Source of the DNA: Schlesneria sp.
Lineage (GTDB): Bacteria; Planctomycetota; Planctomycetia; Planctomycetales; Planctomycetaceae
DNA length: 64,000 nucleotides
Assembly (NCBI GenBank): GCA_028291515.1
Contig: JAQGHU010000040.1
Coordinates: 62,001 to 126,000 of the forward strand
Reading direction: 5' to 3'
Shown: positions 17,320 to 22,415 of the stretch, piece by piece
Numbering within the stretch: the stretch's first letter is position 1
Layout: each line of letters opens with the position of its first letter
Notes under the pieces: model-generated
Databases searched by the model: none
Seen by the model: only the letters and a program-made list of their open reading frames with translations
What the model was told of the DNA's origin: nothing
Position numbers and translations under genes: made by a program

Positions 17320-17697
17320 ATGGGAGACCGCCGTACCGCCGGAGACCGCCGAGTCTCCGATCGTCGCCAAGCACAGCGATCACCCGTCGATTGTCAAATT
17401 CGCCTGCTGAGCGCCAAGACTCCTTCGCAGGTGGTGCAAGGGAGCTTGTTGGATGTGTCGGCGACCGGTATGCGCCTGATCCTTTCGCAACCCATTTCGA
17501 CCGGCGAAAAATTGTTGATCGAGGCTCGTCGTTCGTCGCGCGTGGTCTGCAATGTCACCGTGCAAGTGATCTGGGTTGAGGCCGGAACCGTCGGACAGAT
17601 CAACGTCGGCTGCGAATCGATTGCCGATCTTTCGCCGAGACAGTTGAGTCAGCTAAAATCAGCAGCCACCGATGTCGCCAGCGTCGCGACGGTCTAA
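17320..17697 (+). CDS. PilZ-domain protein
   Basis: A 125-residue protein built of one PilZ-like domain, the common receptor fold for cyclic di-GMP. An Arg-rich opening (GDRRTAGDRRVSDRRQAQR) includes the R-x-x-x-R signature, and the second signature (D/N)-x-S-x-x-G appears as DVSATGMRL. Strands continue as VTVQVIWVE. I choose ATG 17320, with AGGG ten bases upstream, over ATG 17269, which has none. The Arg repeat before the domain is unusual. It precedes the ATP-grasp gene by 74 bases and the oppositely transcribed export genes, so a role in c-di-GMP control of motility or surface polymers is possible but only inferred. Confidence 0.78.
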   Translation: MGDRRTAGDRRVSDRRQAQRSPVDCQIRLLSAKTPSQVVQGSLLDVSATGMRLILSQPISTGEKLLIEARRSSRVVCNVTVQVIWVEAGTVGQINVGCESIADLSPRQLSQLKSAATDVASVATV

Positions 17698-17771: not shown

Positions 17772-18848
17772 GTGCGTATCTTTGTATCGGAATATATCGC
17801 TGGCGGAGGAATGGCGGGCCGTCCACTTCCTGCTTCGTTGCTGCGCGAAGGGCGAGCCATGCATGCCGCCGTGGTTGCAGATCTACTGGCAATCCCAGGG
17901 TGTCATGTCGCAACGACGTTGGATGAGAGACAGCGTGTTTCGTCAACGCTGCCACCCTCGCAATTTCTTGAGGTCGAATACGTCGATGAAACAGCGCGCG
18001 AACAGACCGCATTTGATCGGCTCTGCATCGAAACAAGTGCAACACTTGTGATCGCGCCAGAAACGGGTGGCGAACTGAATCGGCGAGTACAGCACGTAGT
18101 CGACTTGGGACGACTGGCGTTAAATTGCGCGTCCCACGCGATCGGTCTCTGTGGGGACAAGTTGCGTCTCGCCGAGCATCTCTTGAATCAAGGCATTGCC
18201 ACGATTCACACGCGCGCGGTTCCGGATAGCAAAAATCCCTGGGATGTTTTCGCTGGCGATTGCGTTGTCAAACCTCGTGATGGAGCTGGGTCCTGGTTGA
18301 CGTTTCTGGTTCCGGATCGCGATGCCGTCCGTTGGGAATGTGTTCGCGGTGAGATGAAGGCGGCTCACATGTTTGAGAGTGCGATCATTCAGCCGTACAT
18401 CGCAGGGGAGTCACTGTCTGTCGGATGCTTGTGCGACTCGGTTGGAAATGTCGAGGTATTTCCAATCGCACGTCAAAGCCTGAATGGCCCCAATTTCGAA
18501 TACCAAGGCGGCAGTCTGCCGGCCGAATTAGAGCCTCGGACAGTTGCCGCCATCCACGAACTTGCTCGATCGGCCTGCAAGTCGATTCACGGCTTGCGGG
18601 GCTACGTGGGTATCGATTTGCTGCTTCCAGATGCTAGCTCGATCAGTCCGCTAATCGTCGAGGTCAATCCGCGATTGACGACATCGTACATTGGTTATCG
18701 AAAACTCTGTCGCAATAACATCGCCGAGCGAATGCTGTCGGCCTCTGTCAGCGAATCGCTGCCGCCGCTCGATTGGAATTCGGGCTCGGTCACTTTTGAC
18801 GCTGCGGGAGACTGCCAACATCATATTGGCGGAGGGCCGTCGAGTTGA
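17772..18848 (+). CDS. ATP-grasp ligase, MfnD-like
   Basis: A 358-residue ATP-grasp enzyme. GTG at 17772 is the likely start. The N-terminus RIFVSEYIAGGGMAG resembles the tyramine-glutamate ligase (MfnD) group of methanofuran biosynthesis. ATP-binding Lys167 lies in CVVKPRDGAGSW, and the metal-binding triad Glu297-x-Asn299-x-Arg301 is in VEVNPRLTTSYIG. Planctomycetes are known to carry C1-transfer genes with methanofuran and tetrahydromethanopterin cofactors, so a role in that pathway is plausible. No other C1 gene is in this window, so the substrate remains a guess. The last 28 bases overlap the 3' end of the convergent flhB. Confidence 0.8.
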   Translation: MRIFVSEYIAGGGMAGRPLPASLLREGRAMHAAVVADLLAIPGCHVATTLDERQRVSSTLPPSQFLEVEYVDETAREQTAFDRLCIETSATLVIAPETGGELNRRVQHVVDLGRLALNCASHAIGLCGDKLRLAEHLLNQGIATIHTRAVPDSKNPWDVFAGDCVVKPRDGAGSWLTFLVPDRDAVRWECVRGEMKAAHMFESAIIQPYIAGESLSVGCLCDSVGNVEVFPIARQSLNGPNFEYQGGSLPAELEPRTVAAIHELARSACKSIHGLRGYVGIDLLLPDASSISPLIVEVNPRLTTSYIGYRKLCRNNIAERMLSASVSESLPPLDWNSGSVTFDAAGDCQHHIGGGPSS

Positions 18849-19609
18849 CGAGAAGCCTCGGCAACCGCCAACTCGCGTCGTCGACGTTTCAGACGCGGAT
18901 TCGTCTCGTCTTCTCGCTGTTCGCGACGGACCTCTTCGACCGTCATCATCAATCGACGTTCTGCCTGCCAGAATTGATAGCCATAGTCGGCGATCGCCAC
19001 TACGACCAGTGACAACGATAGAACGACGGCCAACTCTCCGATCAACATCGTCGAGATTGAGTAGATCACTGAAGGTGAGCCGGTCACCAGCGGATCGGCT
19101 GAGATGAGGCGCATGCGCGTATAGGTCATCAGGACTCCGAATAGAATCGCCAGCTTGATCATCGATAAAAATAATCCGAACCATGTCGACATCGACCACC
19201 ATCGGCCTAAACCGCGAGCCAAGTCGAGTCGCTCTAGCTGGGGGAGCACTGCTGTCGGTACCCATAAGAAGCCAGTCTGCACCAGGCTGGCCGCCGCTGC
19301 CGCCGCCGCGATCATAAACAGAATTGGGAGTAAGACGATACCGAGGCGCGTGGCAAGTTGAAGAAAGGTCTCGACGACAATCTGCTCATTAATTGATGTG
19401 GGCGGTTGCGACGACAAGGTGGAACGCATCATGCCGGACAGTTCGCTTCCCAAGCCAGGCCCAAACCACCAGACCCCAAGAGAAGCGAATAGCAACACGA
19501 ACGCACTGACAAAGTCAGTGCTGCGAGCCACTTCGCCTCGTGCGCGAGCTTCGCGACGCCGACGCTCTGTCGGTCGCTGCGTTCTTTCTCCAGTGTCATC
19601 GGCGGACAT
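18821..19609 (-). CDS. flhB: FlhB-like export protein lacking the autocleavage domain
   Basis: Membrane part of FlhB, the substrate-specificity switch of the flagellar/type III export gate. The N-terminal amphipathic block ERTQRPTERRRREARARGEV and four membrane helices (about residues 33-52, 89-118, 143-162, 184-210) are all present, with the cytoplasmic linker MTVEEVRREQREDETNPRLK. The protein then stops at residue 262, where ordinary FlhB (~350-380) continues into the domain with the Asn-Pro-Thr-His autocleavage site. No such motif is present in any frame downstream, where the convergent ATP-grasp gene lies. It is the last gene of fliOPQR-flhB, 30 bases after fliR. It may need a separately encoded C-terminal domain (FlhX-like) or may lack switching. 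Confidence 0.85.
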   Translation of the reverse strand: MSADDTGERTQRPTERRRREARARGEVARSTDFVSAFVLLFASLGVWWFGPGLGSELSGMMRSTLSSQPPTSINEQIVVETFLQLATRLGIVLLPILFMIAAAAAAASLVQTGFLWVPTAVLPQLERLDLARGLGRWWSMSTWFGLFLSMIKLAILFGVLMTYTRMRLISADPLVTGSPSVIYSISTMLIGELAVVLSLSLVVVAIADYGYQFWQAERRLMMTVEEVRREQREDETNPRLKRRRRELAVAEASRQLDGPPPI

Positions 19610-19639: not shown

Positions 19640-20566
19640 TCAATCTTGAGCGGAGGGCGAGTCGATCTTGCTCGCCGCTATCTCAATCGTTTCTTGAACC
19701 GAAGACATCACCGCTTCTTGAATCCCCGGCAATGTCGCAGCCAGAACTAACATAGAGGCTGCTGCACGCAAAACAAACGCGATCGAGGCCAGTTCCCATC
19801 TCGATGATCGCCGGATCCAACTCAAAGTGAGATCGAGTAACGACATCGCCACAACGAACGGCACAGCAATCCGTAATCCCAAGATCAACGACTGCTGTGT
19901 CATTGCAATCAGTAACTCAGAAATGGAATTCGGCAGTCTCGTCAAGCCGACAGGAATTACATGAAACGTGTCGAGGATCAGACGAACGAGATGCAAGTGA
20001 CCATTCATTGGCAGCATGGTCAGAATCACGGCGATGCCAAATAGGCAGACCAGTTTCCCCGTCCCCGAGTCACCTGATGAGAAGTCGGGATTCAGGACCT
20101 GCCCCATCCCCAGTCCGCTATGCCGATCGATCCACTCACCGGCGAGTTTCAGGCCGGACAAGAAAATTGCAATCGACAGTGCCAGCGACACTCCGACTGC
20201 CGCGTTACAAATCATCCCCGCGACCAAGTCGGTTGATGACCAGTCTGCATCGATGGTAGAGAGTGCGGTCTGATCCAGCGGGCGAATCTCAACTCGTTCC
20301 AGATGCGAGACTGCACGTATCGATCGACCGTCATCAGGAGCGAGTCCGATTCCTGGAGCAACAATTAACGTCAGCAGTACGACCAAGCCGATGCGGATGG
20401 GCCATGGAAGTATCCCACGTTCAATCAACGGCCAGGCCAGGAAAAAGCCGGTCCACCGTGTGGCCACCAACAAAAAGACAGCAGCCCGCGCGACACCGTC
20501 ACCCGTCACCACTTGCAGAAGCTCGTGGGGGATGTTTCCAAACAAGGATTGAAAGAGCTGGTCCAT
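19640..20566 (-). CDS. fliR: Flagellar/type III export protein FliR
   Basis: Polytopic membrane protein of the export gate, 308 residues against ~260 in E. coli. Family features: RAAVFLLVATRWTGFFLAWPLIERGILPWPIRIG near the N-terminus, then IFLSGLKLAGEWIDRHSGLGMGQVLNPD and ILGLRIAVPFVVAMSLLDLTL. A periplasmic-like charged loop at about residues 78-105 (DGRSIRAVSHLERVEI) accounts for the extra length. It lies 25 bases after fliQ and 30 bases before flhB on the same strand. Confidence 0.92.
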   Translation of the reverse strand: MDQLFQSLFGNIPHELLQVVTGDGVARAAVFLLVATRWTGFFLAWPLIERGILPWPIRIGLVVLLTLIVAPGIGLAPDDGRSIRAVSHLERVEIRPLDQTALSTIDADWSSTDLVAGMICNAAVGVSLALSIAIFLSGLKLAGEWIDRHSGLGMGQVLNPDFSSGDSGTGKLVCLFGIAVILTMLPMNGHLHLVRLILDTFHVIPVGLTRLPNSISELLIAMTQQSLILGLRIAVPFVVAMSLLDLTLSWIRRSSRWELASIAFVLRAAASMLVLAATLPGIQEAVMSSVQETIEIAASKIDSPSAQD

Positions 20567-20591: not shown

Positions 20592-20858
20592 TCAGATCGT
20601 TCCCGGGATCCCTCGGATCAGATCAACCGCGTATTCAGACAACAATCCCAATCCCCATGGCATCAGCAGCAGCACCACGACAACCAGAGCAATCAGTCGA
20701 GGGACAAATGTCAGCGATTGGTCTTGCACCTGGGTCAGCCCCTGCAGCAGTCCCATCACCAGTCCAACTGCGAGGGCGACCAACAGGACTGGGCCACTGA
20801 TCATCAATACCAGCATCGCGGCGTTGCGGCAGAGTTCGATGGCAGTATCTGGAGTCAT
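20592..20858 (-). CDS. fliQ: Flagellar/type III export protein FliQ
   Basis: Small two-helix membrane subunit of the export gate, 88 residues as expected. The helices run [20 protein letters not shown] and [19 protein letters not shown], with the conserved loop [19 protein letters not shown] (the family Q-I-Q-E-x-T-L-x-F-x-P-K pattern). Its ATG overlaps the fliP stop in ATGA, which suggests coupled translation. Confidence 0.95.
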
Positions 20859-21811
20859 GCGAGTCGCACACTTTCCAGCAACATGCCGATCGTTAAGAAC
20901 CAGCCGTCGATCAGCACGAACAGCAGCAACTTGAACGGAAGCGAAACCATTGAAGGCGGCAGCATATTCAGACCGAGGCTGGTCAAGATAGAAGCCACAA
21001 CCAGATCGATCACCAGAAACGGAAGGAAGATTTGGAACCCAATCAGGAACGCGACTTTCAACTCGCTCAATAGATAAGCAGGAGCGAGGACATTCAGACC
21101 GACATCGTCGTAGCTCTTGGGTTCATTCCAATCGCTTGCCGCTTGTGACTTCGTTTCAGGCCGTTGGTAGTCGATCAGCATCCAGACGGCATCGGCGTTG
21201 CCCGCCTGATCGATTTGTCTAGCCATGAAGTCGCGCAATGGAGCCACTGTCTTCTGGAAGGCAGTGGCCTCGTCCAACGGTTGAATGCCTGCGACTGGGT
21301 TGGTGTAAGGATGAATTCCATCGTCGTAGGCTCGTTGCCAAACTGGCGACATAACCAGGAACGTCAGAAACATGGCGAGTGCCATCGAGATCTGCCCTGG
21401 CAAGGCTTGTGATGTGCCGAGTGCCTGCCTTAGTAGCCCCAGCACAATACTGAAGCGAACAAAGCACGTTGTCATCATCAGGATTGACGGAACCAGACCC
21501 AGGATCGTCACGGCGACGAGGACTCGTAGCGATGTTCCTACGGTTGCTGGATCGACATTCGGCAGGATCTCAGCAGCCTGCGCCTGGGCTGCGGCATCGA
21601 TCACCTTAGCCGCGTCGTCCAGACGACCGGGAGCAAGTTGCCCCACCTCGCGGTTTTGCTGCGGTCCTCGGACAGATGCTGGATTAGGGCGAGATTGACG
21701 CTCACTTTGCGCTGTGGCACTTTTTGGATCAGAAACAATGATGACCAGCGCAGCAATCAATGTTGCTGCGACAAGTCGGCTGCGGTAGTTCTGCGAATGG
21801 ATGCTATCCAC
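20855..21811 (-). CDS. fliP: Flagellar/type III export protein FliP
   Basis: Core pore subunit of the export gate, 318 residues. The start is GTG 21811, eight bases inside the end of fliO, with GGTGAGG nine bases upstream; the frame is open to 22078 only as antisense-like sequence over fliO. A signal peptide-like segment ([16 protein letters not shown]) is followed by a Gln/Ala-rich periplasmic linker (about 35-90). Signatures: [39 protein letters not shown] and [20 protein letters not shown]. The family name FliP is secure; flagellar rather than injectisome use is inferred from the fliO neighbour. Confidence 0.94.
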
Positions 21812-22415
21812 GGCGTGAATCCTCACCGGGGAGTGGAGTTCGATGCGTTGCAGGGCGCAAAGTTGAGCCGAGTGGGCTGGCGGAAAAGTTGCTCGCCTGC
21901 TTGGAGTCACGTGGTGCATGGCAGGCGTCAACCAGTCGTCGCACTTCGGCCGGATCGGTGATCTCAGACAACGTTCTTGCCCCTTCGGGCGACACACTGA
22001 GCACGAGAACCCGGCCGCCGCAGCGGACCAGATGAATGGCGACTTTCTGTTCGAGCGATCGCCGACCCAGCAATTCAACGGCCTCGACCGGCAGACCGCG
22101 AGAAACGCCCAGATAGGGCTTTATCCAATAGGTCAGCGTGCCCAAAGCGGCAACGATCACAGACAAAGAGACGATCGTGGTCCAGAGTCCGTCCGTCGCA
22201 GACGTACTTTTTCGTTGCGGCGTCGCAATGGAATCGCGGCCGCCGTTTCGTGGAGGAAGCTTAATGGACGTGGCGGGCTGTCGAGGTCCTTCATTGAGAT
22301 CATCGTCGGCGCAGGCGACTGCCGACAGCGATACCGCAAACGCGAGCAACATCACCAATCTCAATGGTGATTGCAGGTTATGGCTTCGCAACATCCTTGT
22401 CGCACTCAGCTTCAT
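21804..22415 (-). CDS. fliO: FliO-like export gate assembly protein
   Basis: Poorly conserved family, so the call leans on position just before fliP as well as on structure. 203 residues: an N-terminal signal-like segment ([17 protein letters not shown]), a polar linker, one membrane helix ([20 protein letters not shown], ~78-97) and a cytoplasmic tail with [22 protein letters not shown] and [11 protein letters not shown], which matches the FliO beta-strand block. FliO helps assemble the FliP ring. Its last eight bases overlap fliP. No fliM or fliN is seen upstream in the window, so this is the start of the visible cluster. Confidence 0.82.

Follow-up and report, generated by a model that had tools for sequence, protein, structure and literature searches.

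What does a flagellar-type export gate do when its FlhB subunit ends before the domain that switches substrate specificity? This question is raised by a 64,000-nucleotide window (the whole stretch of DNA that was analysed) from a Schlesneria genome. A preliminary description of the window had noted an FlhB with an intact membrane part that stops at 262 residues, and had concluded that such a system must either not switch or use a second protein encoded elsewhere. The question was addressed in a survey of 59 genomes, comprising the window's own (G000) and 58 relatives, in which flagellar parts were identified with Pfam models.

The truncated FlhB and its partner genes

The gene in question, here termed flhB2 (18821..19609, minus strand, stop codon included), is an intact open reading frame with an ATG start and a product of 262 amino acids. 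The Bac_export_2 model PF01312 covers residues 7-255 (E 4.9e-56), which correspond to profile positions 1-243 of 335; the final positions of the profile, about 90 in number, have no counterpart in the protein. Residues 2-256 align residue for residue with residues 2-256 of solved FlhB chains (8z5s, 6s3l), and the protein stops six residues later. In both comparisons the four-helix membrane domain, the gate loop and the cytoplasmic linker are retained, confirming an intact membrane part with a stop ahead of the cleavage domain. FlhB2 shares with the flagellar FlhB family (TIGR00328 / PF01312) the N-terminal gate-forming half with D208 and E230, but not the autocleavage domain, and scores 163 bits against TIGR00328, below the cut-off of 349. 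Among 17 FlhBs without the Asn-Pro cleavage site (siteless FlhBs), D208 is nearly invariant and E230 invariant, with the numbering equated by alignment.

The autocleaving C-terminal domain with its Asn-Pro (NPTH) site is absent from FlhB2 and from all frames of the window. Neither NPTH nor NPTE occurs in any frame between positions 17500 and 20600, in agreement with the earlier statement that no such motif is found in other frames. A profile built from 20 planctomycete FlhB C-terminal domains gave zero matches at E ≤ 10 in the six frames of the whole window and of 42 related loci; as a positive control, it recovered the genome's own full-length FlhB with E 2.7e-41. The sole 'NP' of FlhB2 is part of a TNPRL stretch near residue 238, lies in the linker and is not a cleavage site. 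The 3' end of the gene is located inside a convergent ATP-grasp gene (17772-18848, plus strand), with an overlap of 28 bp.

The FlhB lengths of relatives were compared, as had been proposed. The truncated gene was found in all 15 Schlesneria genomes, with open frames in each; its closest copy, that of G012, is equally long and 87% identical over 262 codons. Because the same truncation occurs throughout the genus, an assembly error is rejected and the short FlhB is genuine. The preliminary description had regarded a full-length FlhB in close relatives as counter-evidence, but such a protein in place of the truncated copy was found only outside the genus (in the flagellated G015).

flhB2 is the last gene of a FliO-P-Q-R-FlhB run, the members of which are all encoded on the minus strand. 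The export-gate subunit genes fliR2 (19640..20566, 308 aa; PF01311, E 3e-35; NCBIfam fliR 106 vs sctT 59 bits) and fliQ2 (20592..20858, 88 aa; PF01313, E 9.3e-24) are preceded by fliP2 (20855..22078; PF00813, E 7.8e-64; NCBIfam fliP 214 vs sctR 159 bits) and fliO2 (21804..22415, 203 aa; PF04347, E 1.5e-7). Counted from its first TTG, fliP2 encodes 407 amino acids with the FliP domain at 190-400. This over-long frame bears a long non-FliP front and overlaps fliO2 by 275 bp (21804-22078); the true start of fliP2 is probably further downstream.

Partner genes are scattered over the window's genome. Contig C18 carries a FliF-FliG-FliH-FliI run with the second FliF of this genome, and contig C81 carries FlhA-FlhF-FlhG-FliA with the second FlhA. 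The gene set with the truncated FlhB is referred to as the headless system in the following. Its FliM is found on contig C8 beside infC-rplT-pheS-like genes, as in G003, and its FliN is probably encoded on contig C85. The FliG has N, M and C domains and the FlhA is complete, cytoplasmic domain included. All five of FliP, FliQ, FliR, FlhA and FlhB are present, and without FliPQR no export would be possible. Six further genomes have the FliF-G-H-I run (G001, G002, G003, G005, G006 and G014). In the flagellated G015, FlgB, FlgC and FliE stand ahead of the FliF run; among the reading frames at this locus, none of the three was found ahead of it in the window's genome or in G024. The NCBIfam bit scores for flagellar and Sct families are 744/537 for FlhA, 214/159 for FliP, 163/150 for FlhB and 584/554 for FliI, all four below the equivalog cut-offs. 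Judged by these scores, the headless components are closer to flagellar than to injectisome families.

At the flhB loci, FliOPQR adjoins flhB in 6 of the 15 genus members and does not in the other 9. Among the 19 genomes in which only siteless FlhBs were found (siteless-only genomes), FliP lies beside FlhB in 11 and was not seen there in the other 8, again considering flhB loci only. Of the 16 siteless-only genomes with scanned loci, 12 have a FliA-type sigma gene in the vicinity of FlhA; of the other four, the loci of G006 and G052 are cut at the edge. In the nine genus members with flhB outside the fliOPQR operon (L042-L050), the gene stands beside a conserved protein of 129-158 amino acids. 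In the window's genome as well as in G003, the second FliM gene (L215:5637-6608, L216:6150-7148) adjoins infC- and rplT/pheS-like genes; the G003 copy has apparently lost the usual FliM N-terminus. Conserved neighbours of FlhB, FlhA and FliF were considered as substrate candidates, which yielded nothing convincing; many of the clusters were antisense frames.

FlhB type and flagellar parts across the genomes

The window's genome encodes a second FlhB, which is full-length with an NPTH site, in a separate operon (G000:C25:159331-160350). This gene directly precedes an flhA. FliP and FliQ were detected at the same locus by tblastn, FliO and FliR were assigned by reading, and two FliM/FliN domains lie just upstream. 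FliK (C117), flagellin-domain genes, rod/hook genes and one MotB plug are also present in the genome. We infer that these axial, FliK and stator genes belong to the system with the full-length FlhB. Schlesneria daughter cells are described as motile by two flagella in the relevant part of PMC4334474, which is expected for genomes with both systems. An assignment of the full-length FlhB as an injectisome SctU was dropped, as flagellin, FliK and rod/hook genes track this copy and not the truncated one.

An FlhB with the Asn-Pro site was found in 38 of the 59 genomes. All of these 38 have flagellin and rod/hook genes, 36 have FliK (exceptions G004 and G019) and 37 have the MotB plug (exception G016). 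The 19 siteless-only genomes yielded flagellin in a single case (G024) and no rod/hook, FliK or MotB match, and they retain FlhA (19/19), FliF (18/19) and a FliM/N domain (17/19). The remaining two genomes are G033, with only an FlhB fragment at a contig end, and G053, without FlhB or FlhA. FlhB type thus tracks the flagellar parts, indicating that the flagellum is served by the full-length FlhB, and that the truncated FlhB belongs to something else. Fisher's test on the flagellin table gives p 6e-14 for species that are not independent; independent pairs on the FlhA tree agree in 4 of 4 cases, which are too few for significance.

Both FlhB types occur together in eight genomes (G000, G004, G007, G008, G009, G011, G012 and G013), each with two FlhA and two FliF. 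The flagellum is absent from 7 of the 15 genus genomes, and the headless FlhB is retained in every one. A search for a separate FlhB C-terminal domain, as proposed earlier, returned from the 15 genus genomes at E ≤ 10 only the full-length FlhBs of eight genomes (E 9e-37 or better) and four noise matches (E 0.4-0.7). Five of the seven genus genomes without a full-length FlhB had no match to the C-domain profile at all at this threshold. Of the two options that had been offered, the absence of switching stands in so far as the system cannot switch by the known mechanism; a second protein supplying the domain is unsupported in the 15 genus genomes.

G024, which is 79% complete, is the only genome that combines a truncated FlhB with flagellins. 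Three flagellins, one FliD-like and one FlaG-like frame are located on a separate 18-kb contig (G024:C88, L227; other loci of this genome are L041 and L228). Contamination and an early stage are both possible explanations.

Two genomes can be compared with Table 1 and text of PMC12288469, as far as these were available. Flagella are listed there (Table 1) for Isosphaera pallida; G042 gave no flagellin, rod/hook, MotB or FliF match, which conflicts with the listing if G042 is this species. Kolteria novifilia is called flagellated in the same source, in agreement with the Asn-Pro FlhB and flagellin of G039 if this genome represents that species.

Descent of the headless system

The FlhA tree comprises 62 rows. 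All 15 headless FlhA copies of the genus fall into a single clade (100/100), which is sister to the flagellated G015 (100/99). Together with G015, the genus is nested within the family's principal flagellar clade. The eight FlhA that belong to the flagella of the two-system genomes form a separate clade (100/100) at a large distance, in the company of families f3 and f6 and four further genera. Left out of this tree were the fragments of G016, G023, G030 and G033, the second pieces of G014 and G031 and the half-length frames of G040, G049 and G057. G024 was labelled flagellated in the tree and siteless in the state-change and contrast analysis.

Five changes of the Asn-Pro state were found on the FlhA tree, namely in the genus, in G020 + G024, in G017, in G054 and in family f2, to which G042 belongs. 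The FlhBs of G017, G046, G050, G055 and G058 (f2 and G017) keep the C-terminal domain without Asn-Pro, which looks like an intermediate stage. A tree of the FlhB N-terminal part (57 rows) has only two state changes and does not group the genus with G015; long branches join in this tree. With the Isosphaeraceae-like f2 rows, G017, G020, G023, G024 and G054 removed, a clade of the genus and G015 was not rejected for the resulting set of 45 FlhB rows (p-AU 0.37). The FlhA phylogeny implies that the headless system descends from the flagellum of its own family, and that about five independent losses took place.

Proposed function and alternative explanations

We consider it probable, at roughly 60%, that the headless system is a second, flagellum-derived export base that has lost shaft, hook, filament, stator, ruler and switch domain and is reused as a late-mode exporter without a specificity switch. 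The FliO-P-Q-R-FlhB run of the window would be part of this second type III apparatus, whose other components would be encoded on other contigs. Where no hook has to be measured, there would be nothing to switch, and the system could do without the FlhB domain on which early (rod/hook) substrates dock and which keeps the gate in early mode. The gate left behind would stay in late-secretion mode at all times, and late-type substrates docked on FlhA would be exported across the inner membrane. Their destination would probably be the periplasm, because rod and hook are gone. In the window's genome, such an exporter would coexist with a complete flagellum that uses the full-length FlhB. As siteless-only genomes are devoid of recognisable flagellin, rod/hook, FliK and MotB genes (the G024 flagellins excepted), the system is most likely non-switching because neither hook nor filament is built.

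A laboratory counterpart is known from Salmonella, in which early substrates dock on the cleaved FlhB C-terminal domain, which also keeps the gate in early mode, according to the portion of PMC13344023 (mBio 2026) drawn on here. In Salmonella without the rod-hook genes and flk, an FlhB with a stop at 258 or a deletion of 270-383 allows the late substrate FlgM-Bla to reach the periplasm, while early FlgE-Bla is blocked and FliK is not needed (PMC13344023). The FlhB without C-domain works only in the absence of Flk and with raised expression. The half of FlhB that is retained is an integral gate part in cryo-EM structures (PMC7064499). In the proposed exporter, FlhB stops at the same point as in the Salmonella mutants; rod, hook and FliK would likewise be dispensable, and in the window's genome FlhA and the other gate subunits are present. 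It differs in that the Salmonella case, as presented in that portion of the paper, is an engineered or selected laboratory state that needs raised expression, whereas the present system is natural and fixed throughout the genus.

Beyond the genus, we tentatively suggest, with somewhat less than even confidence, that flagella of Planctomycetota turned about five times into a new type III exporter. Each time, the Asn-Pro site or the entire switch domain would have disappeared along with rod, hook, filament, stator and ruler. The parts left over, namely C-ring, MS ring, ATPase and gate, would constitute a machine naturally locked in late mode, which persists after the flagellum is gone and sends proteins to the periplasm.

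Among the alternatives, a decaying relic is unlikely but survives best. According to this explanation, the former flagellum disappeared piece by piece, and the leftover genes, including the flhB without its 3' part, are functionless. Stepwise loss of parts is indeed seen, since G042 is without FliF and FliM/N, G055 is without FliM/N, and G003 and G010 are without FlhF/FlhG beside FlhA. The separation of flhB from fliOPQR in nine genus members points in the same direction, as does the lower constraint on the truncated FlhB (dN/dS 0.22 vs 0.04 for the full-length copy, window's genome against G012). However, the frames are open in all 15 genus genomes, and dN/dS values (NG86; three pairs per gene among the flagellum-less G001, G002, G005 and G006) range from 0.04 to 0.19 for five genes in these four genomes: 0.13-0.15 for FlhB, 0.08-0.09 for FlhA, 0.15-0.19 for FliF, 0.11-0.13 for FliG and 0.04-0.06 for FliI. 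For window's genome and G012, the headless FlhA is as constrained as the flagellar one (0.044 vs 0.035). The headless genes are under purifying selection, with FlhB less constrained than the flagellar FlhB. Moreover, the seven flagellum-less genus genomes lost the flagellum or never had one, and the headless system was lost in none.

It is improbable that the genes build a second flagellum or other appendage, either with axial proteins that have diverged beyond recognition by Pfam or, in two-system genomes, with axial proteins and switch borrowed from the other system. FliG, FliM, FliN and the FliA-type sigma factor are retained, the window's genome does contain rod, hook, flagellin, FliK and MotB genes, and the available table of PMC12288469 lists flagella for Isosphaera pallida. 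Yet axial genes were recognised by these Pfam models in each of the 38 genomes that encode an Asn-Pro FlhB, close relatives included, and the 19 siteless-only genomes, without a rod/hook or MotB match, have nothing to borrow. In addition, early rod/hook subunits dock on the very FlhB domain that is missing here (PMC13344023, in the portion used).

Lower still is the likelihood of a role without export, in which MS ring, C-ring and gate act as scaffolding in the membrane, for example for pole marking with FlhF/FlhG or for surface sensing. The C-ring proteins and, in most scanned loci, FlhF/FlhG are kept despite the loss of the stator, but a scaffold would need neither the export ATPase FliI with FliH nor the whole FlhA, which are kept and constrained. 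An error of sequencing or assembly, a frameshift, or an FlhX-like C-domain encoded as a protein of its own is hardly credible: stand-alone C-domains do exist in other genera, but the truncation is shared by 15 of 15 genus genomes, the C-domain is absent from every window frame and no stand-alone copy was detected in those genomes at E ≤ 10 besides the noise mentioned above.

Comparison with known systems

According to current views, injectisomes arose from the flagellum a single time in the distant past. The same first step, i.e. loss of axial parts with retention of the export base, seems to be repeated and more recent for the headless system, and the path can be followed, as the intact ancestor still exists in sister genera. 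Derivation of secretion systems from flagella is already known, and the closest analogue is that of Myxococcales. The 'Myxo' NF-T3SS (Abby and Rocha, PMC3459982, as far as available) is likewise a flagellum-derived export apparatus without FlgBCDEK and MotAB; it also lacks FliE and is argued to translocate protein. In contrast to the present system, which keeps FliG, FliM and FliN and is nested among the flagella of its family, the Myxo system is without FliG and is an old lineage at the base of the injectisomes. Flagellar genes are similarly kept in the nonflagellated Lysobacter enzymogenes (PMC9927559); the portion of this source drawn on here concerns the effects of lost genes put back and describes no FlhB truncation. 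A headless flagellar system or a truncated FlhB in Planctomycetota was not found described in the open-licence literature of PubMed Central.

The genomes provide a natural test of the role of the FlhB switch domain, which goes whenever hook and ruler go. This is expected if early-substrate docking and hook-length switching, rather than export as such, depend on the domain. In two-system genomes, complete and headless systems are comparable within one cell.

Stand-alone FlhB C-domains, which we take to be FlhX/FhlB-like, would supply the missing domain; none was found in the genus with the C-domain profile. They occur in 10 of the 59 genomes, all of other genera, as frames of 91-153 amino acids, each shortly after an additional Flg_hook (FliK-like) gene (G043:C1:438337-438558, G051:C74:28532-28759, G038:C3:35201-35416, G048:C299:39518-39736, G056:C7:22991-23206, G047:C1:5104583-5104798, G044:C15:26297-26515, G026:C635:14210-14428, G039:C1:7468841-7469062 and G028:C89:1428-1643). 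The seven that were read (L065-L071) have no Asn-Pro site, and FlhB is full-length in those genomes. The stand-alone domain and the additional Flg_hook gene together resemble a FliK-FlhX pair that accompanies a full-length FlhB. In three genomes from a single family, extra frames of 509-515 amino acids match only the C-terminal half of FlhA (profile positions ~309-656; G040:C10:357603-358631, G049:C38:36083-37069 and G057:C13:189810-190814).
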